From Hellea sp. (GTDB lineage Bacteria; Pseudomonadota; Alphaproteobacteria; Caulobacterales; Maricaulaceae): 64,000 nt of DNA. Within the stretch, counting starts at the first letter, position 1. Each line of letters opens with the position of its first letter. Shown here piece by piece: positions 8,072 through 62,665 of this stretch. The position numbers and the translations under genes are program-made. A model generated the notes under the pieces. The model searched no databases. It had not been told where the DNA came from and saw nothing but the letters and a program-made list of their open reading frames with translations. Where the stretch lies: the NCBI GenBank assembly GCA_020629135.1, contig JAHDDX010000006.1, positions 1 to 64,000 of the forward strand. Direction: 5' to 3'.

Positions 8072-8683
8072 ATGAAAGGTCGACTCGCATTTTTAGATCA
8101 ATGGTATGAGCGCATCAAGGCGACAGCTGGCGATAAACGGGCCGAGCCCGTTCTGGCTGGGTACTCATTTATAGAAAGCTCAATTTTTCCGGTTCCGATA
8201 CCTCCGGAAGCTCTACTTATCCCGATGGTTCAAGCCGATCATAGCCGGGCCTGGCGGATAGCTTTTATTTGCTCGCTGTTTTCGGTGCTCGGCGGCATAT
8301 TTGGTTATTTTTTAGGCCTGTTCTTTTTCGAGGTCCTTGCAGAGCCTTACCTTGAAAAAATCGGCAAGGCCGAAAAAATGGAAAGCTTCAGCGCGACTAT
8401 CCGCGAATATGGTGCCCTCGGTGTGTTCGGGGCTGGTTTCACGCCTTTCCCTTACAAGGTCATCACCATTATGAGCGGAGCGCTGAAAATCAATTTTGCG
8501 ATATTTGTTGCCGCCAGCGTACTTTCCCGATCACTTCGGTTCTTTCTTGTCGCAGGTATTGTCAAAAAGTTTGGCGATACGGCCGAATATTGGCTCAAGG
8601 AGCATTTTGGCAAATTTACTTTTGCCATATTTGCAGTTTTGGTCGCCTTGTTTTTAATCTGGAAGTTTGCTTTCGGGCATTAA
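8072..8683 (+). CDS. YqaA-family (DedA-like/VTT) membrane protein
   Basis: SFIESSIFPVPIPPEALLIPM, GALGVFGAGFTPFPYKVITIMSGAL. Confidence 0.8.
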   Translation: MKGRLAFLDQWYERIKATAGDKRAEPVLAGYSFIESSIFPVPIPPEALLIPMVQADHSRAWRIAFICSLFSVLGGIFGYFLGLFFFEVLAEPYLEKIGKAEKMESFSATIREYGALGVFGAGFTPFPYKVITIMSGALKINFAIFVAASVLSRSLRFFLVAGIVKKFGDTAEYWLKEHFGKFTFAIFAVLVALFLIWKFAFGH

Positions 8684-9475
8684 CCCCACCACCGAGTCAA
8701 ATCCGAATTTAGAAAATGCTGATCGACGTTTTTTGGAGGTTGGTGGGCCGATCAGGAAGGCCAGGTCCTTTCCTGGTCGTTTATCTGCACCTTTCACACC
8801 CAGCAGGCTTTCCGTACGTCGCGCGATCGCAGTACCAGAATCGACCCAGCTTACTGGCCTTGACGCGGCCTGAGATAACTCCGCTCTAAGCAACGGAAAA
8901 TGGGTGCAGGCCAAAACGATTTGGTCGGGTATTTGGCCAGGTTCATTTTCAAAAAACGGTCGAATTTCATTTTCTACAACCGTCATATCAACCGGCATGC
9001 CGGCCAGTTTATTTTCAGCCTGGGTCACAAGTTGAGTACTCCCATGCAACATCACACGGCAATGGGCGGCATGGCGATTAATCAAGCCGTCCACATATTT
9101 GTGCCGGACGGTTCCCGGTGTTCCCAAAACGCCGATAACGTTTTTGTCAGACTTTTCCGCAGCGGGCTTAATGGCGGGCACAACCCCGACAACCGGCATG
9201 TCGGCTTCCGCTCTGATCGCATCCAGCGCTGCGGTGGACGCCGTATTACAGGCCAGGACAATAATATCCGGCTTTGTCATAATGGACAAAGTTCTGATCA
9301 ACCCAGGCAGGCGCTTCCTGAGCGCGGATTCTGATTTTTCGCCATAGGGCCGAAAGGCGTCATCTGCCACATAGATTTGTTTCAGGTCAGGCAGGCGCGA
9401 TCGAATCTCAGCCGAAACTGATAGTCCACCAACCCCAGAATCAAATATAAGTGCGCGAGCCATAATTATCCTCAC
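8654..9475 (-). CDS. murI: Glutamate racemase
   Basis: FDSGVGGLSV, ACNTAST, LACTHFPLL motifs. Confidence 0.92.
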   Translation of the reverse strand: MRIIMARALIFDSGVGGLSVSAEIRSRLPDLKQIYVADDAFRPYGEKSESALRKRLPGLIRTLSIMTKPDIIVLACNTASTAALDAIRAEADMPVVGVVPAIKPAAEKSDKNVIGVLGTPGTVRHKYVDGLINRHAAHCRVMLHGSTQLVTQAENKLAGMPVDMTVVENEIRPFFENEPGQIPDQIVLACTHFPLLRAELSQAASRPVSWVDSGTAIARRTESLLGVKGADKRPGKDLAFLIGPPTSKKRRSAFSKFGFDSVVGLMPESKLPD

Positions 9476-9534
9476 GCTGTCAATTCAGCGTTAAAAATCT
9501 ATTAGCAATAGGAATATGGCAAAGTTCAGGCGTC

Positions 9535-49852: not shown

Positions 49853-51877
49853 CTAATTGGCGTTTACATCAAGCAATTCTCTGATCTCGAATTCCAGCAA
49901 ATCGGTTAAGGTCAAAATCATGGGCACACTGATATGTGTGCTGTCACGATATACCATTATATTGTCTATAATGACGGGACAGGTTGCGGAAGGGCACAAT
50001 GCCTGATTGAGGTCAATGTAATCAACTCCAAGGTTTCGGGCCGTTTTTTCTTGCCAGGCCATATGTGCAAGAGCGCTTCGTTTGGTTCGGTCGCAGGTTT
50101 TTCCGTCTGCTAAAATACAATCCCAGTAACCGTCATATGCTTTGGGTGTATCGCCCACCAATACGACACGTACATTTAGCTCGGTCAATTTTTTTATCAT
50201 CGACTGCAGCCCGGTCTGGTAAATATTCGTTGCGAGGGACGGGTCAGTAACAATCATATTGTCCGCGGTTATCCATCCCAAATAGTCTGTGTCATTTGTC
50301 AGGACAATGATGGGGCGTTGGTTGATGGGCGTCATTTTTATTTGTTCAAGCACTGAAGTTTTCCAGGCCTCACACGATATATAATTACTTTTATACCCCT
50401 TGTGCCAGATAGGAATGTCTACGGAAGGGCAAGAGGATTTGGTCACAGCTCGGATGTTAAGGGATTGATCCGTCTCCATATTTATATTTGACGCCGCCGA
50501 ATTGAAAACGGGCAACCATTGCGCTGCGTGACTATCCCCAAACAGCCAGATCGTATGATCAGCATTTTTTGGCCCGTATAGGCAATCTTTTATAGGTTCG
50601 TACTCGTTATTGAGGTGGCAGTCATCCGCGTAACTTTCAGGCAAAATTTTGCGCTGGTCATTATAGGACGCAACCATCTCTTCAGATATGGTTTGCCTGA
50701 CCTTTGATAAAGCGGTTGCTTGTGAAATTACCCAAATACTCAGCAACATCGACCCAAAAGCCAATATCAATGTGCGGCCATTAAAGCGGGCGAATTTTTG
50801 AGAGTTCCGAATTGGGTTTTCGATAAATGAAAATGACACGATTGTCAGAACAAGAAGAGCAAGCAGGCAAAATTCGATTTGAAAAGAGCTTCCTGGGACT
50901 AATGTAGGCCCAAAATATAATACGGGCCAGTGCCATAGATAAAAAGCATAAGATCTGTCTCCAATCCATTGTGCAACAGGATTGCTAAGAAGCAAAGAAG
51001 ATGAGCCAGCTGCCAGGCAGATTAGCGCCGTGATTGTCGCTGAAGTGGGAATTAGGGCCAATGGAGCCGGGAAGCCATCAAATTCCCGCATAAAAAGACC
51101 GGATAATAGGATCGCAGTCAGGGACAAATATAGCAGAAACTGGGAAGCAAAACTTTGTTGAAAACGACTTCTAATTTTTGGCGCTATTGCCGCCAAGATA
51201 ACGCCGGCAGACAGTTCCCAAACCCTGAATTCGGTCTGGTAAAACACAACGGTCTGCTGAGTTTGTGATTTAAAAATGCCTGAGACGAGTGAGACAACCG
51301 AAAGCGCACCTAAAGTTATGATGATGGTGCGAAGCCTAAGGCGGAGGAATGAAAAACCTAAGAGTATTATTGGAAAACCAATGTAAAACTGCTCTTCAAT
51401 GCTTAGTGACCAAAAGTGCAGAAATGGGCTCTGAGGCCGATCCAGCATAAAATAATCTTGGGCGCTAAAGGAAAAAGCATAATTTGCGACATAAAAAAGT
51501 GAGGCCAATGCGTCTTTTTTAACGTCTTCGAGAAAATCAACAGGCGTATACATAATCGCGAGAAAATACGTAACCAAAATTACCAACAAGGCCTGAGGCA
51601 ATAATCGCCGAACACGACGAGCCCAAAAGGTGACGAGCGCTTTATATCTGTTCTGGGGCGTGGACGTGTAGACGGAGTCAAACAATATACCGCCGATCAA
51701 GTACCCGGAGATCACAAAAAAAACATCTACCCCTACAAAACCGCCATTTACATTTCCGTATCCGGCATGAAAAAATACCACGAGCAAAACGGCAAGCGCC
51801 CTCAAACCCTGAATGTCCCCGGAAAATGGGACGCGGAAATGACGTTGTTGTGTCGGCGTAGTGGTTATTGGGTTCAA
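49853..51877 (-). CDS. Acyltransferase-3 / SGNH fusion, O-antigen acetylase OafA/YrhL type
   Basis: FSGDIQGLRALAVLLVVFFHAG..GGFVGVDVFFVISGYLI; C-terminal SGNH (IWLFGDSHAAQWLP, DSTHIS). Confidence 0.92.
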   Translation of the reverse strand: MNPITTTPTQQRHFRVPFSGDIQGLRALAVLLVVFFHAGYGNVNGGFVGVDVFFVISGYLIGGILFDSVYTSTPQNRYKALVTFWARRVRRLLPQALLVILVTYFLAIMYTPVDFLEDVKKDALASLFYVANYAFSFSAQDYFMLDRPQSPFLHFWSLSIEEQFYIGFPIILLGFSFLRLRLRTIIITLGALSVVSLVSGIFKSQTQQTVVFYQTEFRVWELSAGVILAAIAPKIRSRFQQSFASQFLLYLSLTAILLSGLFMREFDGFPAPLALIPTSATITALICLAAGSSSLLLSNPVAQWIGDRSYAFYLWHWPVLYFGPTLVPGSSFQIEFCLLALLVLTIVSFSFIENPIRNSQKFARFNGRTLILAFGSMLLSIWVISQATALSKVRQTISEEMVASYNDQRKILPESYADDCHLNNEYEPIKDCLYGPKNADHTIWLFGDSHAAQWLPVFNSAASNINMETDQSLNIRAVTKSSCPSVDIPIWHKGYKSNYISCEAWKTSVLEQIKMTPINQRPIIVLTNDTDYLGWITADNMIVTDPSLATNIYQTGLQSMIKKLTELNVRVVLVGDTPKAYDGYWDCILADGKTCDRTKRSALAHMAWQEKTARNLGVDYIDLNQALCPSATCPVIIDNIMVYRDSTHISVPMILTLTDLLEFEIRELLDVNAN

Positions 51878-52016: not shown

Positions 52017-52964
52017 ATGTATAAAAATAAGACTGTATCGGCGGTAATTCCTTGTTTCAATGAAGAAACTCAAATTGGCACTGTGGTTGAGACAATGCCT
52101 GAAATCGTTGATTTTATTGTTATTGTTGATGATAAGTCCAAAGACGAAACGGTAAAAGTCGTTAAAAAATTGCAGAAATCTGACAAACGCGTCGTACTCA
52201 TAGAACATCAGGTCAATCAGGGTGTGGGCGGAGCGATCGCAAGCGGATATGAATGGTCTCGTGACAATGACATTGATATGGCCGTTGTTATGGCGGGAGA
52301 CGGGCAAATGGACCCAAAAGACTTACCTGCCTTACTTGACCCGGTCGTTGACGACGGTGTCAATTATTCCAAGGCTAACCGACTGATTGTCAATCGATCA
52401 ATTGATAAGGTGCCTTTTGTCCGATTTTTCGGAAACTCTGTTCTTTCTTTATTGACAAAAATTTCTTCGGGCTACTGGCATGTATCCGATTCTCAAACTG
52501 GATATACTGTTGCCGATAAATCCGTGCTTCATGCTATCGACTGGCAAAAAATGTATAAACGTTATGGCCAACCAAATGATCTGTTGATCAAGTTAAATGT
52601 GCACAATTTTAAAGTCCGGGATGTTCCGACAGAGCCGGTCTACAATGTCGGGGAAAAAAGCGGAATTAAAGTCAGAAAGGTTATTTTCACAATCAGCAAT
52701 ATTCTCGTCAAAGGATTTTTCTGGCGAATGAAAGTCAAATATGTAATTCGTGATTTTCATCCTTTGGTTTTGTTCTATTTATTGGGCTTGCTTCTTTTGC
52801 TTGTCGGCGTTCTGTTTTTGCTTCGATGTGTTTGGGTTCTTATTGCGACAGGCTCAGCGCCACTAATCAGCACAATCAGCATGTTTTTCATGTTAGCGAC
52901 AGGGCTGCAATGTATGTTTTTTGGTATGCTGTTTGACATGCAAGACAATCGAGACTTGAAATAA
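52017..52964 (+). CDS. Glycosyltransferase family 2 (DPM1-like) with C-terminal TMs
   Basis: SAVIPCFNEETQIGTVVETMPEIVDFIVIVDDKSKDET, VVMAGDGQMDP. Confidence 0.92.
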   Translation: MYKNKTVSAVIPCFNEETQIGTVVETMPEIVDFIVIVDDKSKDETVKVVKKLQKSDKRVVLIEHQVNQGVGGAIASGYEWSRDNDIDMAVVMAGDGQMDPKDLPALLDPVVDDGVNYSKANRLIVNRSIDKVPFVRFFGNSVLSLLTKISSGYWHVSDSQTGYTVADKSVLHAIDWQKMYKRYGQPNDLLIKLNVHNFKVRDVPTEPVYNVGEKSGIKVRKVIFTISNILVKGFFWRMKVKYVIRDFHPLVLFYLLGLLLLLVGVLFLLRCVWVLIATGSAPLISTISMFFMLATGLQCMFFGMLFDMQDNRDLK

Positions 52965-52983: not shown

Positions 52984-53832
52984 TTGCTGCGGATTGAGGA
53001 TGTGACCGAAAAATTTGCTTCAAATTTATTTGTTCCGACACTTTTCAGTGAGCTCTTGCTGTGTGGGCGTGACTTTTGTCAGTCATTCGCAAGGTCGGAT
53101 CTATGGCTCAAATTGGCGTGGCGGGACGTCAGAGTTTTGTTTGAAAGATCATTTATTGGCCCGCTCTGGATGACCATCCAAGCCGCGCTTTGGACGATTG
53201 CCATTGTTTTTGTTTTTGGCGGCATTATTGCGCCCGTTAAAGAATATGTGGTTTATGTTGCCGCCGGTATTGTTCTTTACAATTTTATTACCGTCATTGC
53301 GACGGATAGCAGTGAAATTTTCATAAAACACCGCATTATTATTCATTCACACCCAAACCCTTATTTTGCCTATATTTTGAGGCATATCGGATTTTCTGGT
53401 ATTCAATTGTTATTTCAATCCATCGTTGTGGCTGTCGCTATGGTTTGGGCGCAACACACACTTTCCCTCACCGCCCTTTGGGCAATTCCGGGTATTGTCC
53501 TTTGTGTAATCATGGGTGTATTTACATCATTATTGTTTGCATTAATCGGGTTGAGGTGGGGAGATTTTAGATTTGCCATGCTAGCGATTATGCGCCTTGG
53601 ACTTTTTGTTACTCCAATCCTCTGGTATCCGGATAACGGGGGTGCCTTAAAGAAAGTTGCGGCTCAAATTAATCCCATAAGCCACTTTGTTGATGTAGTT
53701 CGACAGCCTTTGCTGGGTTCCGTTCCGTCTACCTTAAACTATGTGGTTGTTTTTACGGCTATTGCGATTGCATGCTTCGGATCTATATGGATGTTTGCAA
53801 AGTTTAGACGTACAATACCGATGTGGGTGTAA
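52984..53832 (+). CDS. ABC-2 type polysaccharide export permease (Wzm/KpsM-like)
   Basis: LAWRDVRVLFERSFIGPLWMTIQAALWTIAIVFVFGGI, LFVTPILWYPD. Confidence 0.88.
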   Translation: MLRIEDVTEKFASNLFVPTLFSELLLCGRDFCQSFARSDLWLKLAWRDVRVLFERSFIGPLWMTIQAALWTIAIVFVFGGIIAPVKEYVVYVAAGIVLYNFITVIATDSSEIFIKHRIIIHSHPNPYFAYILRHIGFSGIQLLFQSIVVAVAMVWAQHTLSLTALWAIPGIVLCVIMGVFTSLLFALIGLRWGDFRFAMLAIMRLGLFVTPILWYPDNGGALKKVAAQINPISHFVDVVRQPLLGSVPSTLNYVVVFTAIAIACFGSIWMFAKFRRTIPMWV

Positions 53833-54599
53833 TGGCGCACATCTTTGCTGAAAATCTGTCTATTTTGTTTCCGCTTAGCCGAACGAGGTTAAAGCGGAAG
53901 TTTATTTCACGTGGCGGCACAGTCGGTGGGGACATCGTCTATATTAATAAGACGCCCCATATCGCGGCGCTAAAGAATGTAAATCTCACCTGTAATCCAG
54001 GTGACAATGTTGCGCTTATCGGCCCGAACGGGTCCGGGAAAACGACATTACTGAGAACATTGGCGAGGATTTACGAGCCGACGGGAGGCCAGGTTGCATG
54101 CGAAGGTACAATAGCGACATTGTTTTCCAGCTCTGTATCATTAAGCGATTTGGAAACGGGGCGAGAAAATATTTATTATGCATCAGTGCTAAGAGGTATT
54201 TCCAATCAATATTTATCAGCTCAACTTAACAATATTATTGAAATATGTGAGCTTGGGGACTCTATTGATTTACCTGTTTCTATGTACTCGGAAGGCATGA
54301 AATCGCGGTTAGGGTTCGCCATGGCCCTTATTGCCAACCCCGATATAATGCTGATTGATGAGGTGATCACGACAAGTGATATACATTATTTGCAACGCGT
54401 TGCCGCGCAGTCGAACTTTTTCAAAAACCCGAATGGAATTACTGTTATTGCGTCGCACGCAACGGATATTTTGGACTTGTATTGCAATAAAGCGCTATGG
54501 CTTGATTCTGGTGAGGTTAAGGCATTTGGCCTTTATGAGGATGTTGTGGCAGAATATAAAACAGCGCAAACAGCTCAGGTCGGCGATGATATAAATTAA
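53823..54599 (+). CDS. ABC polysaccharide export ATPase (Wzt/KpsT-like)
   Basis: Walker A IGPNGSGKTTLLRTLARIYEPTGG, signature YSEGMKSRLGFAMAL, Walker B IMLIDEV; coupled to permease. Confidence 0.92.
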   Translation: MGVMAHIFAENLSILFPLSRTRLKRKFISRGGTVGGDIVYINKTPHIAALKNVNLTCNPGDNVALIGPNGSGKTTLLRTLARIYEPTGGQVACEGTIATLFSSSVSLSDLETGRENIYYASVLRGISNQYLSAQLNNIIEICELGDSIDLPVSMYSEGMKSRLGFAMALIANPDIMLIDEVITTSDIHYLQRVAAQSNFFKNPNGITVIASHATDILDLYCNKALWLDSGEVKAFGLYEDVVAEYKTAQTAQVGDDIN

Positions 54600-55453
54600 C
54601 TGTAACCGAAATAATCCATCATGTCTTTGGACTGACGCCAAAATTCGTCCAACGCAGTTTGATCCCAATCACCATGGCTGGGCAGTATATAGCTTTTGTT
54701 ACTTTTGCGTCCGTTAATTCTATCTTTCAAAAGGGCTTCAACTTTATCGGTTTTTGGCCAGTCAATTCCTAAAAAATCCCGAATTTCATCATAACATTGT
54801 TCCGTTTCAGAAAAGAAAGTCTCTGACTTAACGAATAACACCTGATCATTTGACCAGCTATTTGCTACGCCTTTTAATACGGTTCGATAGGTTTCTGCCC
54901 ATAGCCAGGCATTTTTCTCAATAGGCGAATAGTTTTTCCATTCTTCAAAACTCGCGCTGCCTTTTAGCGGGCGTAGACGCCCCATAGCGATATAGCGCTC
55001 TAAATCTGTTAACTCGGTCGTCGCATCAAGCCAGCCCACGGGTGTCGGGTCAGGGCGGTCAGATGTATAAACGGATCTGACAAAATTTCGGCCGTCGCGA
55101 ACAAGAACAATAAGGCGGGCTTCGGGAAAAACCTTGGGAATCACCGACACAAAAGGTGAATTATTATAGGCGATATCGCCAAACCCTTTTAACTTTTCCT
55201 TCTCGCAAATATCATAAACATTTTTGCGTTTGCTTTGAAAAATGCCCTGAGCGAGTTCCGGTTTTGCATATGCCTGATAATTTTCAAGTGTTAAAAATGG
55301 AATCCACTGCTCCAGGGATTCTTCCCGCTCGCGTATTTTTCCCTCATGCAAGGTAAGCAGGCCTTCTTCTGCATTCAATAAATTAGACAGATACATCGAT
55401 CCGCAGCGACCTGCGCCTGCGCCAAAAAAAATAAGGGGCTGTTTTTCAGTCAA
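54596..55453 (-). CDS. Sulfotransferase-family protein
   Basis: 5'-PSB-like GAGAGRCGSMYLSNLL and 3'-PB-like LIVLVRDGRNFVRSVY motifs. Confidence 0.8.
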   Translation of the reverse strand: MTEKQPLIFFGAGAGRCGSMYLSNLLNAEEGLLTLHEGKIREREESLEQWIPFLTLENYQAYAKPELAQGIFQSKRKNVYDICEKEKLKGFGDIAYNNSPFVSVIPKVFPEARLIVLVRDGRNFVRSVYTSDRPDPTPVGWLDATTELTDLERYIAMGRLRPLKGSASFEEWKNYSPIEKNAWLWAETYRTVLKGVANSWSNDQVLFVKSETFFSETEQCYDEIRDFLGIDWPKTDKVEALLKDRINGRKSNKSYILPSHGDWDQTALDEFWRQSKDMMDYFGYS

Positions 55454-55686
55454 GATGATTTCCTGGAAATGACGCCTAATATGCCTTCGACGGAAGTCAT
55501 TTCAAAGGCATCATCTGGCTCAATACTGACTCCGAACTCACTTTCAACCGCGAGCATAACGTTAATAAAAGAAAGTGAATCCCAGGCCGCTACTGAATCC
55601 ATTGTCGCGTCGCTGGTAATTTCATCGCGAATTTCTTCGCCAAAAACAGAAACAAACGCGTTTTGAATTTTATCAATCATTTTCAA
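55450..55686 (-). CDS. Acyl/peptidyl carrier protein (candidate aminoacyl carrier)
   Basis: 78 aa; WDSLSFINVMLAVESEFGVSIEPDD with phosphopantetheine Ser in DSL. Confidence 0.92.
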   Translation of the reverse strand: MKMIDKIQNAFVSVFGEEIRDEITSDATMDSVAAWDSLSFINVMLAVESEFGVSIEPDDAFEMTSVEGILGVISRKSS

Positions 55687-55713
55687 AGATCTCCTGTCAC
55701 GGCAACATGGCCC

Positions 55714-56667
55714 TTATCGAGCAGATTTCAAGGATTGTGCCAGCCAATGTGTGTATTTTTCTCGACCAATTGCCGTCATATGGGTTGTATCAGCGTATCC
55801 ATCTATATTTTCGATTTCTCGTGTCAAGTCTTCGCCAGGAATAAATAGTTGCGCGCCGACTTTGGTCTGAAAAACCGAACTAAATTCGGGATCCAGCGTT
55901 TTATAATAGGCCTGATTTATATGATAAAAATAGAGTTTGACATTATTTTCGGAAGCGAAATCAACCATTTCTTTAAAGAACCCAAAATCATGCCGAGCGG
56001 CTTCAGAGTCCAGGTCCCAAGACCACTTTTGATCGACATAATATTGATGGTAACGCGCTTCTTGCTGGTCAAGATAGCCCCGCCGAATACGTTCCTCTCG
56101 GGTACGGCAATATCCGGTTGTTGCCGGAGATGGAGCGTCGGAGATTGCAAGATCGCCCATTTTACCTGACAAAATGAGACTGAATTGTTCTGTTATGCGC
56201 TCAATGATTTTTTTGGAACTTACGCTCAAAATATCAAAATCAAATTCGCCGGCAGATCGAAATCGGTAGCTCTTTATCCAGTCGGATATTTTTCCAACCA
56301 CGAAGAAATGCGCGTGATATGTTCCGCCTTCCGGGAGGTTGGCTTCCACAAGTATTGTGTCGACCTCTCGGCGCGAAATTACGTCCCGTAACAAGGCATA
56401 ATTTATACCTTGCCCGCGCCAATTTTTGGCCAAATTGTAAACCGTAGTGCCGCCCAACTCGTTTGACAAAATTTCGGCATCTACACCCTGTAACGAACGT
56501 GACGAACCTATGACGACAAGATCCACAGGTCCTTTTTGCCCATAAATCATGTCAAACTGACAGGGATATTTGCTATATCGATAGGCGGGACGATCCGTCG
56601 CTTTAATCAAAAAAGCCACAAGGGAGACAAATAGTATTATACCCGCAATTCTTAAAGGATTGGACAT
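55714..56667 (-). CDS. Single-pass membrane SGNH-like protein (DltD/AlgJ-like)
   Basis: N-terminal TM; LVVIGSSRSLQGVDAEIL nucleophile block and C-terminal D-x-x-H (DGYADTTHMTAIG); likely start 56667. Confidence 0.7.
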   Translation of the reverse strand: MSNPLRIAGIILFVSLVAFLIKATDRPAYRYSKYPCQFDMIYGQKGPVDLVVIGSSRSLQGVDAEILSNELGGTTVYNLAKNWRGQGINYALLRDVISRREVDTILVEANLPEGGTYHAHFFVVGKISDWIKSYRFRSAGEFDFDILSVSSKKIIERITEQFSLILSGKMGDLAISDAPSPATTGYCRTREERIRRGYLDQQEARYHQYYVDQKWSWDLDSEAARHDFGFFKEMVDFASENNVKLYFYHINQAYYKTLDPEFSSVFQTKVGAQLFIPGEDLTREIENIDGYADTTHMTAIGREKYTHWLAQSLKSAR

Positions 56668-56675
56668 ATTCGAAC

Positions 56676-57872
56676 TTAAATTGCTTGTGTGAATTTCGAC
56701 GCTTCTAATGGTATCTGGTCGGGCCAATTGCTTGGTGAAATACCTTTTTGAGCAATAAGGGCGTAGGCCAATCTTTCATAACCGACGCCGAAGCAGCCGG
56801 AATGACCATCCGAAACTTCAGCTTGCTCAATGTTATAGGCCTGCACCAAAGTTTGTTGATGATTATTGAAGCTGGCAACCGATATCCATTTATCTTCTTG
56901 CGGTATAAAGGCTTGAAGCTCGTATTTCAGACGGAATAATCGCTGGAAGTCTTTTTTATTTGACGCGGAAGTCGCAAAAAACGGATCAGAAGCCGCTGCT
57001 ATTCGATGTGTCATGTCAAATTCCCTAAGAAGGGATTTGCATTTTTCTAATATTTCTAACTGCCACTTTCGAACAAAGTCTTTATCTCCAAAGTAAATAA
57101 TCTCACGCATTGTGTATGTTTTTAATCTCGTTAGGCCTTGCGTGTTTTTCCCCTCATGCCGATGACATTTTCCAATAGCGGTAATCAGGCTTTGATTAGG
57201 CTTTAAAGTGCTGGCTTTAGCGCGTTCAAAACAATGATAGCAAACTGTTGGACACAAGACCTGATTGTGATTTGAGATCAGCGAATCTACATCTTTGACG
57301 CCCGAATAATCCTCAGGTGAAGATGCAATCGCCGTCAGGCTTTCAAAATCCTGGTGAATTGTGCCAGCTAAAATGGCATGTTGCGGAAACGACTTTAAAT
57401 AGCCGTTATTGAGAAGGCTGAGGGTAGGTACGGTTGTTGGATAACCCTGCTCAGTACATCCAATTTCAAGGGCATAATCCAAAAATAATTGATCAAGCCC
57501 TTTGAGCAGGGAAAATAGGTCGCCCTCAAATGAAGGAATGCCATCAGAGTTAAAGTGAAGTTGTCCGCTTTTAAGCAGCTCGGCCAGCGGATCGTCAGGT
57601 CCCGTTACTGTACCTGTATATTCTTCAAGGACTTCATCTTTGGTTTTTGCGCTCGCATCCGAGCATTTTTGCATCAATTGACTGGCAGAGTCGTTAATGG
57701 CGTCAGCTTCTCCTTCGCTGAGCGGGGTTGAAAAAAGCAAACGTAATCCCTTATTTTCAAATTCAAAATTGGAGATTTTTTCAGACACATAATATATTTG
57801 CTCTGCCACATCTTTCTTTGCGGCATCAAAATTTGTCCAGTTTTCGGGAAAGTCTACTATTATATCAGTCAT
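56676..57872 (-). CDS. Class II aaRS-like amino acid:[carrier protein] ligase
   Basis: Motif-2-like GKCHRHEGKNTQGLTRLKTYTMREIIYFG, motif-3-like HSGCFGVGYERLAYAL, CPTVCYHCFE; Cys/Glu/Cys pattern as in atypical SerRS-like ligases; no tRNA-binding coiled coil apparent; ACP gene close by. Confidence 0.82.
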   Translation of the reverse strand: MTDIIVDFPENWTNFDAAKKDVAEQIYYVSEKISNFEFENKGLRLLFSTPLSEGEADAINDSASQLMQKCSDASAKTKDEVLEEYTGTVTGPDDPLAELLKSGQLHFNSDGIPSFEGDLFSLLKGLDQLFLDYALEIGCTEQGYPTTVPTLSLLNNGYLKSFPQHAILAGTIHQDFESLTAIASSPEDYSGVKDVDSLISNHNQVLCPTVCYHCFERAKASTLKPNQSLITAIGKCHRHEGKNTQGLTRLKTYTMREIIYFGDKDFVRKWQLEILEKCKSLLREFDMTHRIAAASDPFFATSASNKKDFQRLFRLKYELQAFIPQEDKWISVASFNNHQQTLVQAYNIEQAEVSDGHSGCFGVGYERLAYALIAQKGISPSNWPDQIPLEASKFTQAI

Positions 57873-57889
57873 CTTAGGTGCACCTCTTA

Positions 57890-58048
57890 TCAGTATCCTT
57901 GATATACATATTCAACTCGCCCAAACGGAAAATGGCTGATGAAATAGACGATCATCACGGCGACGATGAGTATTGTGGCAAATCGTAAAGTAGCGGAAAG
58001 AATGCTCTTTGCGGTCATTGGAGAAGTTTGTTTTAACTCGTCTGCCAT
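57890..58048 (-). CDS. 52-aa single-pass membrane microprotein, DltX-like (not in supplied ORF track)
   Basis: MADELKQTSPMTAKSILSATLRFATILIVAVMIVYFISHFPFGRVEYVYQGY*; ATG overlaps the MBOAT stop (TAATG); stop 17 nt before the next gene; one TM, positive N-terminus, C-terminal Y-V-Y-Q-G-Y matches DltX F-x-Y-x-x-F spacing. Confidence 0.82.
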   Translation of the reverse strand: MADELKQTSPMTAKSILSATLRFATILIVAVMIVYFISHFPFGRVEYVYQGY

Positions 58049-59202
58049 TAGAAAATCCTAAACAATGTTTGAAACACGGTATCCATGTCGGGGGCATTTG
58101 CCATGAACGAAAGAAAGGACACCCAAATCATCGTGATTGCCCATCCAATAACACCGATCCCGATTTTAAGGGCCAAGGGTAGTGAGGTAAACCTTTTAGC
58201 AAAACGTCGCTTGAGCAACAAGAATATTATCAGGAAACCGCCATGGCCGACGCCCCATAACAGGTATTGAATTCCGACAGAGTGCCAAAGACCGACTATA
58301 ACGAATGCGAGGAATAAAGCGATGTAAGGTCTTTTCAGAGAAACGACCATTCTAAAGTAGAGATATTTACTTAGGAACTGCCCAAGGGATATGTGCCAAC
58401 GATTCCAAAACTCTTCCGGCGTGCGGGCTAAAAAAGGATAACGAAAGTTTTCTCGAATTCGAATCCCGAAAAATGCGGCTAAGCCAATGGCAAAGCTCGT
58501 ATATCCTGTGAAATTGATATAAAGATAGAGGAATTTCAGGAGAATAATTCCGAGAACACTTATGCCGTTAATTTCCGGGTTGATCACGCCGTTTTCGGTA
58601 TAGGCAGCCAAGACGTTAAGTAATATGTTCTGCCCAACATAAAATGAAAGTATAAAGCCTTCTAACATCCGGCTGATGCCAAAACCGATATTTGACAAAT
58701 TGGGATTGGCCTGCATGACGGTATCGCTAAACGTATTTCTATCTTCAATTGGCCCAGAAGAAAAAATCGGGAAAAAAGAATTCAAGAGTAAAATCGTGCC
58801 CAAACCAGCGCGTTTGCCGCTAGAGGCCGCATCTATGAGAACGCTGGAGGATTTCATAATAACGTATGAAAGCCCTAAAACTGCAATCGGTTCTTTTTTG
58901 AGGTCGAGCCAAAATAGGGGAAGAACAAGTATGGTAAGGCTTCCCCAGAACGCTAATCTTTTCAATAATTTTGAGGATCCGTGATGGGTTCGTACCCAGA
59001 CAAGTGCGACTTCGGAAACCGCCACCCAGATTGTAATGCCAATACAGGCCGCCGCCGCGAGGACAGACTCAAATGCTATGAGCCCCAAAGAAATAAAGAT
59101 GAGCCAAAATCGGCGTATCTGAACGGCACTTGGAGGAATCAGCCAGTAAACAGGGGCGGCCAAGAATAAAAATAACAGGACGGTTTGTGGTTGAGTAAAC
59201 AT
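58048..59202 (-). CDS. MBOAT-family O-acyltransferase (DltB/AlgI-like)
   Basis: RTPEEFWNRWHISLGQFLSKYLYFRMV, FVIVGLWHSVGIQYLLWGVGHGGFLI with conserved His. Confidence 0.93.
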   Translation of the reverse strand: MFTQPQTVLLFLFLAAPVYWLIPPSAVQIRRFWLIFISLGLIAFESVLAAAACIGITIWVAVSEVALVWVRTHHGSSKLLKRLAFWGSLTILVLPLFWLDLKKEPIAVLGLSYVIMKSSSVLIDAASSGKRAGLGTILLLNSFFPIFSSGPIEDRNTFSDTVMQANPNLSNIGFGISRMLEGFILSFYVGQNILLNVLAAYTENGVINPEINGISVLGIILLKFLYLYINFTGYTSFAIGLAAFFGIRIRENFRYPFLARTPEEFWNRWHISLGQFLSKYLYFRMVVSLKRPYIALFLAFVIVGLWHSVGIQYLLWGVGHGGFLIIFLLLKRRFAKRFTSLPLALKIGIGVIGWAITMIWVSFLSFMANAPDMDTVFQTLFRIF

Positions 59203-59207
59203 CGATT

Positions 59208-59984
59208 TTATTTTTCAGTGGAATTTGCAAGCTGGGTCAAAACGTCTTCAAATGCGCCGATCTCGCAAGTTTTCATACTTTTGCTGATAAAGGCGTCTAC
59301 AGGCGCATTTGGGGCAATGACACATAATTTATCATTTTCAGAGCTAAAATAGGTCTGGACGAGGCTCCAGCCAGATGGTGCGGCTTCAATCGAAAAATTT
59401 TCTGGCAATTCGTGATGGCTGCCAAATAAGCCCAGCAACATACCGTTAATAGATGTTTGAAGCAGGAAAAAAGTCTGACGCGTTTGCTCCAAATTTATAA
59501 TGGTTTTGTTTTTAGGTTTCGATTTTGGGTCCAGTTTATATGAAAATGCTAATCTTTTAGAATTTGCGTCGCTATACCATCCGGTCTGGTCAAATTGGAC
59601 AAAAACTGGTGTGTCTACTTTTAACTGAGACATCCGAAGCAAGCAGGCATGAACCTCATTGAGCGCTTTGGTCGGGGTGGCACAATACCCGACTTTTTCT
59701 GATCCCTTGGACAAGCTTTTTGCCATTTTTCGAAATTTATGATCGCCAACGATAAAAATGTCTCTCTGCTTGACAGGCTGGGATTGTCTTAGCGACACAC
59801 TCATGGCGTGATGCGGATAAGATGTCAGGGGGCTTTTCATCGATTTATGCAAAAACCGATAAACATCATTACTTGAAAACAATATTAGAATTAACAGAGC
59901 CAAAAGGGCTGTTGTCGCCAATGAGACTGGCGTTCGCCGCCAGGCTGTTTCTTCAAAGGTATTTGTGCCGCTTTGACCGATCAT
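59208..59984 (-). CDS. Single-pass membrane/periplasmic protein of unknown function
   Basis: 258 aa, N-terminal TM, soluble C-terminus (RDIFIVGDHKFRKMAKSL); start overlaps previous stop. Confidence 0.65.
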   Translation of the reverse strand: MIGQSGTNTFEETAWRRTPVSLATTALLALLILILFSSNDVYRFLHKSMKSPLTSYPHHAMSVSLRQSQPVKQRDIFIVGDHKFRKMAKSLSKGSEKVGYCATPTKALNEVHACLLRMSQLKVDTPVFVQFDQTGWYSDANSKRLAFSYKLDPKSKPKNKTIINLEQTRQTFFLLQTSINGMLLGLFGSHHELPENFSIEAAPSGWSLVQTYFSSENDKLCVIAPNAPVDAFISKSMKTCEIGAFEDVLTQLANSTEK

Positions 59985-62665
59985 TTTTGCTGTTCCTTTG
60001 GCGCTTTATCTGAGGTTTTGGGCAATGAATTAAGAAAATCCGAACCGGTAAAATATTGGAACATATTTGAGACAATTTGCTGACACTGCGGATTAACGGG
60101 CCCAACCAGCCTATAGGCGCCCATACTGCCAATTGTGAACACGCCGCCCCCATTATCACCATATGGCGCCTCTGATATTAATCCCGAAAAATGCAAAATT
60201 CCTGCAAATGGTCGACCATTCATAGCCGAATAATTTGGATTAAACATATAAGAGGCTGCTATCATGCTCCTATTTGGATTGGCATAGGAAAGCCATTGGG
60301 AATTTGGAATGAAATGAGGCCCAATGAGTGGCGATCCATCTAATTCTGCGTCAATAAAGGCTGAATTTTTGCAAAATGTATCCATCGGTCCAATTTCTAT
60401 GTTCGTAAAAATAGGATGATTGGCATTTAGAGTATAAGCCATGTCACTATCGTTATAGATCGAAACCGGAATTTGGTGCTGCACCATTTTATCTCTGTCC
60501 AGATAATATCGTACAGCATATCCGCCACTTTCATATGTAGATCCCGTAAGTGTCGCGATTCGTTCATCATTAGGCTCGCGTCGACGCAAATACAAACCGG
60601 TATCTGTGAGATCAACCTTGTTTAAAGCCGGGTTATCGATTGCAGGGTTGGCGCCATCCGATTTATTGATGGCAATCATCTTCCCTTTACGGACCACGCG
60701 ATACCATCCCGTATTTCCCGACATAAACATAAGTCGACCGCCATCTTCAATATGACCGATATAGGCCGAACGAATATTATCATCCCAATATTCATCGTGC
60801 CCAATCACGACCACATTATTGAACCCGTTTAGCTTTGCGGGGTCGCGGCCAATTTCTGACTGCAAGAGATTGACTGTATTATAGCCGCTCTCTTTCAAAT
60901 AATTTGCCACGGCAAGGCTGGATCTGAAGTTATGTTCTGATTTACCCAGGCTGCTATTCAGCGGTCGGTCTAAATTTGCAGCGTAGACCCCATTGGAAAG
61001 CGGAGAAACATAAATAGACCCGCCCCCAAAAGTATTATAAGCCTGCCAGGTATAATCAGGGTGTATGACTGCTATCGAGTTTTCTTCACTCGCGCGTCGG
61101 GGTGGACCCGTAATTTGAAGTAGCGCCGGGCTAAACTGAGCGCCTCCTTTTTCAACATATCTTATGAGGTAGGCCCCAGGGCTTAGTCCTTTGGTGGATA
61201 TGGTTGGATTATTTGATTTGGGGCAAGTTTTCTCGCCGTACCATTGCGTGCAAACTACAGGTAGAATTAAGGAGTTTTGTCCAGATAGATTGATGGATTT
61301 GGCAAGCGACGGAATTGGACCTGTGTCCCAAATTTCTACCCGGTCTAGAAGAAATGGTCGCTGATTTTTTTCGGAAGAAACAAGCAGGTTTACGTCAATT
61401 TTCTTCCCGGATTTCACAATGTGATGCGAAATGCCGCTCGTTAGTATTTCAGTTCCCGTTCGAGAACGCCATGCAAAGCTCATTTCCGGGTATAGATTCT
61501 GAGACAAGGCTCCAGTCGGTTGTACATTTACCAAAAACTTTTTTAGTTCATCTGTAATTGTTATCGCTTCGGATTGTGTTGGATTGGTGGGAAAATTATA
61601 GTCGTTAATCAGGGTTAAAAGGGTTGCAGACGCGGCATCAGAACCCAAAATTGACGCGTAAGAGTAGGCGCCAAGCGCAGCATCGAGCAACTCATTTCCT
61701 GACAATTGACCTTCGGGCGCTTCGACCGTCTTGCCGCGCCCATAAGCCCTCAGCAAATAAGCGCCCAAACTGATTGAAGCATGCGGAGAGCCCTGAAAGC
61801 TTGCGGCCCGGTACCAATAAATGGATTCCGGCGTTAATTTCTGATTCTGGACTGTAAGAAGCCGGGCCAGCTCATATTGGGCGGCATGGTTTCCATTTTG
61901 AGCGGAAGCCCGTAAATTTGCGAACTCATTTGCGGAATTTTTTTGTGCTCTTGATGCATATGCTTTGAGGGCCGACCTATGAGGAAGGTCGTTCGCGTCT
62001 GGTGTCGTATCAATATTGAGCAAAAGACCGTCTGGAATAGGTGTGTTGGCCAGGTTAAAATAATCGTTTAGGGTTGGTGGTAAATTTAAATTGTTGAAAT
62101 CGGCGAACTCTGAGCCTGTAAGCTCACCAGGGTTCAAAAAAACCTGTTTGCGATATAAATCATGAATAAATAATCGGGCCTCTAAACTGCCTTTGAGCGC
62201 GGCTGATCTGGCAAACTGAATGGCGTCAGAATCTGAAAATGCATTTGAAAATGCATTTGAAAATAGCCAATTAGAGAGCAAATAAAGACAATTAGGGTCT
62301 GTCGGCTCTTGGACTGCCTGAGCACTCAGGGGGAAATCGTTTATGGTGCCGTTTAAAATATGACCTTTAATGTTCTGGCACAGCTCAGATCCTTCCACTT
62401 TATCGCTTGAATGGTAGGCCCAAAAAGCATCGTCTGATCGAACAGCTTCGCTGAGTGTATTATTGTCACTCACCGATCCCAACGGGGTCGCACCCGTATA
62501 ATATTCAGAGCTTTTATGAGCGGCCGAAAAATCAATGGGAGAGGCCTGGGGGTTGACGTCTTGTTCGACAGGGGCTTCACCGCAAGACGCCGCAACCAAG
62601 GCAATTAGCGATACAATGAGTGTGCGATTCACAGCCTGTCCTTTGTGGGGAGGGGGTTTAGCCAA
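59981..62665 (-). CDS. Large lipoprotein: Sel1-like repeat region plus N,N-dimethylformamidase beta-subunit-like C-terminal domain
   Basis: Lipobox-like LVAASC; Sel1-like AAQYELARLLTV..YWYRAASFQGSPHASISLGAYLL; C-terminal IHPDYTWQAYNTFGGGSIY, GFNNVVVIGHDEYWDDNIR, GGRLMFMSGNTGWYRV. Confidence 0.78.
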   Translation of the reverse strand: MAKPPPHKGQAVNRTLIVSLIALVAASCGEAPVEQDVNPQASPIDFSAAHKSSEYYTGATPLGSVSDNNTLSEAVRSDDAFWAYHSSDKVEGSELCQNIKGHILNGTINDFPLSAQAVQEPTDPNCLYLLSNWLFSNAFSNAFSDSDAIQFARSAALKGSLEARLFIHDLYRKQVFLNPGELTGSEFADFNNLNLPPTLNDYFNLANTPIPDGLLLNIDTTPDANDLPHRSALKAYASRAQKNSANEFANLRASAQNGNHAAQYELARLLTVQNQKLTPESIYWYRAASFQGSPHASISLGAYLLRAYGRGKTVEAPEGQLSGNELLDAALGAYSYASILGSDAASATLLTLINDYNFPTNPTQSEAITITDELKKFLVNVQPTGALSQNLYPEMSFAWRSRTGTEILTSGISHHIVKSGKKIDVNLLVSSEKNQRPFLLDRVEIWDTGPIPSLAKSINLSGQNSLILPVVCTQWYGEKTCPKSNNPTISTKGLSPGAYLIRYVEKGGAQFSPALLQITGPPRRASEENSIAVIHPDYTWQAYNTFGGGSIYVSPLSNGVYAANLDRPLNSSLGKSEHNFRSSLAVANYLKESGYNTVNLLQSEIGRDPAKLNGFNNVVVIGHDEYWDDNIRSAYIGHIEDGGRLMFMSGNTGWYRVVRKGKMIAINKSDGANPAIDNPALNKVDLTDTGLYLRRREPNDERIATLTGSTYESGGYAVRYYLDRDKMVQHQIPVSIYNDSDMAYTLNANHPIFTNIEIGPMDTFCKNSAFIDAELDGSPLIGPHFIPNSQWLSYANPNRSMIAASYMFNPNYSAMNGRPFAGILHFSGLISEAPYGDNGGGVFTIGSMGAYRLVGPVNPQCQQIVSNMFQYFTGSDFLNSLPKTSDKAPKEQQK

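Follow-up and report, generated by a model that had tools for sequence, protein, structure and literature searches.

Here, we describe a five-gene operon in a draft metagenome-assembled genome (MAG) of the alphaproteobacterium Hellea sp. (GCA_020629135.1). It lies in the first 64,000 nt of contig JAHDDX010000006.1, hereafter the window, to which all operon coordinates refer. The genes, on the minus strand at 55450-59202, encode a DltB-like membrane-bound O-acyltransferase (MBOAT), a 52-residue microprotein, a ligase resembling an aminoacyl-tRNA synthetase (aaRS), a one-helix protein with SGNH-type residues and a carrier protein. We consider it likely that they form a Dlt-type pathway of surface aminoacylation, in which the aaRS-derived ligase activates the amino acid in place of DltA, an enzyme of the nonribosomal peptide synthetase (NRPS) type. 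An earlier note on this DNA had proposed such a pathway from the sequence alone. All five open reading frames (ORFs) are present on that strand and at those positions, and the idea that an aaRS paralogue replaces DltA is supported by the results below.

The operon and its five products

In order of translation, each read from the higher coordinate to the lower, the genes are as follows.
58048..59202, minus strand: MBOAT, probably of the short DltB type, 384 residues (PF03062, TIGR04091, PDB 6bug, tree, residues)
57890..58048, minus strand: one-helix microprotein, 52 residues, candidate acyl shuttle and DltX analogue (motif, homologue, TAATG overlap)
56676..57872, minus strand: class II aaRS-like amino acid:carrier-protein ligase, 398 residues (NF005479, PDB 3mey/4h2w, invariant residues, lengths)
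55714..56667, minus strand: one-helix extracytoplasmic protein with SGNH-type residues, candidate final transferase and DltD analogue (sequence motifs)
55450..55680, minus strand: carrier protein, 76 residues from ATG (PF00550, Shine-Dalgarno before ATG)
The MBOAT and microprotein genes share a TAATG stop-start overlap, and the remaining gaps in the operon are 8 to 33 bases.

The ligase has its closest PDB matches in entries for the amino acid:carrier-protein ligase Bll0957 (3mey/4h2w, E 6e-26). A type-2 seryl-tRNA synthetase (SerRS) comes second (3w3s, 7e-18), and the archaeal-type SerRS profile NF002120 scores the protein at 106 bits. Arg238 and Arg367, of class II motifs 2 and 3, are invariant in the alignments, as are Cys211, Glu240 and Cys360, which we take to align with the Cys/Glu/Cys zinc site of the amino acid:carrier-protein ligase family. 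The tRNA-binding domain of SerRS is not present. An ordinary bacterial SerRS is encoded elsewhere in the same genome (518 bits, cut-off 302), and a separate SerRS is likewise found in two Paenibacillus genomes. The missing domain, the nearest PDB match and the separate SerRS together support, on anatomical grounds, the view that this is not a tRNA enzyme. At its N-terminus the ligase has an extra region of ~90 residues, common to the other long ligases found and lacking in the short type. The carrier gene is two genes downstream. Substrates reported for the family are Gly, Ala and Ser (table in PMC9437257), and the role of the characterised ligases and carriers (Mocibob 2010, 2013, cited there) has been called unknown.

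The MBOAT matches PF03062 (E 6.6e-19) and, in the PDB, DltB (6bug, E 5.9e-22); its best NCBIfam match is DltB, TIGR04091. Both conserved histidines are present, His270 in FWNRWH and His307 in GLWH. The protein ends in TLFRIF and so does not have the fused shuttle motif of acetylation MBOATs.

In the Dlt pathway, D-Ala is carried by the tyrosine of an FxYxxF motif (summarised in PMC12148441), and DltX of B. thuringiensis ends in TFIYNEF (PMC5541007). The window microprotein consists of a single hydrophobic helix followed by YVYQGY as its extreme C-terminus, with Tyr49 encoded at 57902-57904. It alone, among the 522 window ORFs of 30-80 residues, ends in [FYW]xYxx[FYW]; the background for this ending is 3 of 3876 small ORFs in other loci, or 1 of 311 with a helix. 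The Pfam family for DltX, PF12459, is not matched by it.

The carrier was correctly named in the earlier note (PF00550, E 3e-7), which began it at 55686. We think the start is likely the ATG at 55680 rather than the TTG at 55686, because a Shine-Dalgarno sequence, AGGAG, lies upstream of the ATG. Phosphopantetheine is predicted to be attached at Ser37, in residue numbers of the listed ORF, which lies in a DSL motif (codon 55576-55578). The note's description of a single-pass SGNH/DltD-like protein holds for the N-terminal helix, for Ser55 in a GSS motif and for D293-x-x-H296. These residue motifs suggest an SGNH/DltD-like protein; family membership did not emerge from the profile searches described below.

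From the Dlt scheme summarised in PMC12148441, with DltA replaced, we infer the following route. The ligase would adenylate a small amino acid, most plausibly Gly, Ala or Ser, and join it in thioester linkage to the phosphopantetheine of the neighbouring carrier. On the cytoplasmic side, the MBOAT would then collect the aminoacyl group from this carrier and pass it to Tyr49 of the microprotein, whose C-terminus would offer the resulting tyrosine ester to the SGNH protein outside the cytoplasm. Finally, the SGNH protein would attach the aminoacyl group to a hydroxyl on an exported glycan; this glycan is probably made by the adjoining ABC-transporter polysaccharide cluster.

Recurrence in other bacteria

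A scan of GTDB with a four-ligase alignment as query found 80 loci, 77 of them in Paenibacillaceae. In 72 of these 77, all five genes lie on one strand in the order carrier, ligase, SGNH, microprotein, MBOAT. Two of the other five lack only a small-ORF call; the remaining three are short or incomplete loci without the MBOAT, one of them also without the microprotein. The carrier gene adjoins the ligase gene in all 77. Here the microprotein has 36 residues and ends in FIYEGF (47 loci), FIYEKF (25), FIYENF (1) or FIYEDF (1), which fits the DltX acyl-shuttle motif FxYxxF exactly. Its gene and the end of the SGNH gene share a median of 34 bases, and all 74 MBOATs are without the motif. The Paenibacillus microprotein resembles B. 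thuringiensis DltX above the shuffled expectation (z 7.9), and one of the five scanned matches PF12459 weakly. Because the profile of the Paenibacillus SGNH protein, which occupies the place corresponding to that of the window's SGNH-like protein, matched nothing significant among PDB sequences and Pfam, we used a fold search. An AlphaFold2 (AF2) model from 38 sequences (mean predicted local distance difference test, pLDDT, 87) matches GDSL/SGNH enzymes (E 6e-5) and DltD of E. faecalis (6o93, E 8.5e-5, probability 1.00), with modest template-modelling scores (TM-scores) of 0.40-0.45 by query length.

DltA (TIGR01734) does not exceed its curated cut-off in any of the 15 genomes checked, the genome of the window included, and neither does canonical DltB; in the 12 Paenibacillus genomes sampled, neither of the two is over its cut-off. 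In five Paenibacillus genomes the operon MBOAT is the sole DltB-like match. The Paenibacillus operon is preceded by a gene for a secreted-looking protein of ~1070-1090 residues (L034:4366-7563, L054:4251-7499, L112:4353-7637), with FG-GAP repeats in L054, and in the same three loci it is followed by a xylose-isomerase-like gene.

In the ligase tree, the window ligase clusters with those of three loci, L021, L033 and L059 (SH-aLRT support 100). L059 belongs to a Geminicoccaceae MAG, and its ligase is 36% identical to that of the window. About 10 kb from it on the same contig is a 384-residue MBOAT that shares 33% identity with that of the window (E 3e-69) and is followed by a microprotein that ends SNFPYEQVVHVYQQY (HVYQQY at its terminus) and is homologous to the window microprotein, SHFPFGRVEYVYQGY (shuffle z 9.7). 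Beside this pair, on the opposite strand, are genes for KAS III and a carrier (L224:6011-7267). L033, from a Parvularcula MAG, encodes a 70-residue protein ending FRYMGF, a sulfotransferase, a carrier, the ligase and a one-helix GGSS protein, after which the contig ends. Three further loci, two in genome G243 and one in G457, join the ligase and carrier to an MBOAT with a fused motif (FIYFRF, FLYYQF, FIYFQF); a DUF1574 protein (PF07611, 1.4e-4) is encoded at the G457 locus.

MBOAT-linked ligases sit in at least four separate places of the ligase tree. By chance alone, a ligase would fall this near an MBOAT in about 1-1.5% of cases in the genomes of these relatives, and in about 0.9% in the genome of the window, which has two MBOATs. 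In a tree of 36 MBOATs, the motif-fused members form one clade (98), outside which lie canonical DltB, the short MBOATs of Paenibacillus and the window-Geminicoccaceae pair. Branches are long, and we leave the relations among the short MBOATs unordered. For this reason we make no claim that the window and Paenibacillus systems share an ancestor; their architecture could have come together on more than one occasion.

Ligases of this family also occur in other settings. Long ligases of three MAG families (f181, f186, f197; L166-L178) have no nearby MBOAT, several have an adjoining carrier gene, and a recurrent neighbour ends in an NxGDxG-type sequence, which represents another use of the family. 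At one of these loci (L168:13505-13669), a 54-residue one-helix protein ending APYIYAMF, a sequence similar to the shuttle motif, is encoded on the same strand just downstream of a 738-residue ORF. Related ligases on Streptomyces and Priestia plasmids (L014, L015, L019) belong to secondary-metabolite-like clusters that also contain carrier genes and acyl-CoA dehydrogenase genes.

Genomic setting and other explanations

Two further genes flank the five.
54596..55453, minus strand: sulfotransferase-family protein (PF13469, 1.2e-8)
59208..59984, minus strand: 258-residue one-helix protein, possible accessory (position)
The transcription unit is probably longer than five genes, because the sulfotransferase gene overlaps the carrier stop codon and the gene at 59208-59984 ends 5 bases before the MBOAT start. 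The latter gene in turn overlaps its upstream neighbour, an 894-residue gene at 59981-62665 in the same probable transcription unit, whose product has a DMFA2_C domain. The 258-residue protein has GDHKF at the place of the GDS of SGNH enzymes, and may be an accessory protein. We considered whether it is a homologue of a one-helix VGDQRF protein encoded at the same place in the Geminicoccaceae locus (L224), and do not claim this, as the similarity is not significant (z 1.8). Further along are a polysaccharide-type ATP-binding cassette (ABC) transporter (52984-54599), a glycosyltransferase (52017-52964) and an AT3-SGNH protein (49853-51877).

It is also possible, if unlikely, that a carrier-dependent MBOAT pathway moves something other than a plain amino acid, such as an aminoacyl group given a sulfate or other modification on the carrier. 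Homologues of the sulfotransferase are encoded near the ligases of L033 (6823-7716), L059 (10475-11374) and L085 (3734-4573; E 7e-54 to 2e-90 across the three). L085 is the same place as L021. All three nearest relatives, and the window's ligase clade throughout, have a sulfotransferase-family gene with the ligase. The KAS III and second carrier genes beside the Geminicoccaceae MBOAT point the same way, as do the acyl-CoA dehydrogenases found with other family members, which possibly act on the aminoacyl-carrier. However, the core of the Paenibacillus operon has no such gene, and the sulfotransferase may just act on the glycan.

We also think it improbable that the MBOAT, microprotein and SGNH protein O-acetylate an exported glycan, or acylate it from CoA, while the ligase and carrier work in another pathway, such as one that N-aminoacylates a sugar precursor in the cytoplasm. 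Most bacterial MBOAT/SGNH pairs do use acetyl-CoA (PMC12148441), and for other ligases of the family it was predicted that carrier-bound amino acids pass to amino groups of surface sugars (PMC2922099). Within the window's own clade, L021 (2971-17403) places a ligase and a carrier in a nonulosonic-acid-like cluster beside a hexapeptide (LbH) acyltransferase (8495-9493), which suggests that some ligases of this clade N-aminoacylate a cytoplasmic sugar. An MBOAT with a fused FLYFEF motif does lie ~17 kb away from that ligase; it has its own partner protein, and we did not count L021 as a further MBOAT case. Against separate pathways stands the adjacency of the five genes in fixed order in nearly all Paenibacillaceae loci, with no such transferase among them. 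The MBOAT, moreover, is of the short type, has no fused motif and falls outside the fused-motif clade, and ligase and MBOAT are linked in no fewer than four branches of the ligase tree. Finally, that the ligase is a tRNA-charging or tRNA-mimic enzyme beside coincidental neighbours is very improbable: the archaeal-type SerRS matches favour this, but the ligase has no tRNA-binding domain, matches amino acid:carrier-protein ligases better, coexists with a separate SerRS, and in Paenibacillaceae always has a carrier beside it.

The earlier note had allowed for three ways in which its proposal might fail, namely a tRNA-charging ligase, an MBOAT/SGNH pair clearly of the acetylation type, and a gene set found nowhere else. 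What we find instead is a ligase without the tRNA-binding domain, an MBOAT probably of the short DltB type and free of the fused motif, and recurrence in the Paenibacillaceae loci, the Geminicoccaceae pair and the three fused-motif loci. Its identification of the MBOAT, the ligase and the microprotein is borne out as well.

Several observations nevertheless weigh against the Dlt-type reading. The MBOAT scores 132 bits against TIGR04091, whose cut-off is 375, and the ligase scores 140 bits against NF005479, under the equivalog cut-off of 357. In YVYQGY, Tyr replaces Phe at both ends of FxYxxF, and the window microprotein shows no similarity to B. thuringiensis DltX beyond the motif (shuffle z 0.9). 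The window SGNH-like protein matches no Pfam or NCBIfam family, PF04914 (DltD) included, and has no detectable similarity to the Paenibacillus SGNH protein (hhalign probability 0.2%). Its AF2 prediction, made without an alignment, reached pLDDT 36 and gave no usable model, so no inference was drawn from it; a search for closer relatives in 290 genomes of the class gave one weak partial match. Aminoacyl carrier proteins evidently have other uses, since the L021 ligase sits with a hexapeptide acyltransferase and not with an MBOAT. Lastly, only one draft MAG is known to have the window system, and 60 near relatives lack its ligase. Given this absence, the ABC transporter and glycosyltransferase neighbours, and a G+C content of 0.43-0.44 in the operon region versus about 0.51 in the first quarter of the window, the region is probably an acquired surface-polysaccharide island.

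Relation to known systems and implications

Like the Dlt system (DltXABCD), which D-alanylates teichoic acids, the operon combines a carrier, a probable DltB-type MBOAT without a fused motif, a one-helix microprotein with a tyrosine motif at its C-terminus and a putative one-helix SGNH protein. Unlike Dlt, which activates with NRPS-type DltA, it has a class II aaRS paralogue; its MBOAT is also below the DltB equivalog cut-off, and it comes from a proteobacterial MAG, where an ABC exporter for polysaccharide is its neighbour. According to a 2025 paper (PMC12148441), Dlt alone among MBOAT/SGNH pathways has a carrier protein and a microprotein, and the others have neither. The O-acetylation systems PatAB and AlgIJX share the MBOAT, the SGNH protein and an acyl-tyrosine shuttle motif. 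In those systems, however, the motif is on the MBOAT itself, the donor is acetyl-CoA and there is no carrier, whereas the window operon has both a carrier and a ligase. The fused form is seen here only in the G243 and G457 relatives, and those have the ligase and carrier.

With the Bll0957-type ligases (PDB 3mey, 4h2s-4h2y), the window ligase shares the catalytic core, the zinc ligands, the lack of a tRNA-binding domain and an adjoining carrier. It differs in its longer N-terminus and in its neighbours, which are MBOAT, microprotein and SGNH genes rather than redox-enzyme and other genes. Iyer and Aravind (2010; PMC2922099, note in proof) predicted that amino acids bound to carriers by this ligase family are transferred to cell-surface sugars; their scheme has an amide bond formed by an Atu2574-type protein, and no MBOAT, microprotein or SGNH protein. 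The ligases, their carriers and the surface-sugar prediction were therefore already known. The Dlt-type combination of ligase, MBOAT, microprotein and SGNH protein appears to be new, as the earlier note had supposed: text searches of the open-licence literature found no paper describing it, which is weak evidence of absence.

These results tie the orphan amino acid:carrier-protein ligases to a specific, testable role in envelope modification, in bacteria that can be cultured. A non-homologous enzyme, the aaRS paralogue, appears to have taken over from DltA while the logic of the export machinery is kept, and the microprotein acyl-shuttle design is extended beyond canonical dlt. On balance, we lean towards a broader view. 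In much of Paenibacillus, aaRS-driven surface aminoacylation may have taken the place of canonical dlt, and in Proteobacteria it may have come together more than once. Teichoic acids or capsules would then bear amino acids selected by an aaRS active site, which might be L-amino acids instead of D-Ala, and the orphan ligases would have a physiological role. If the amino acid is not D-Ala, the view of Paenibacillus surface charge would change.

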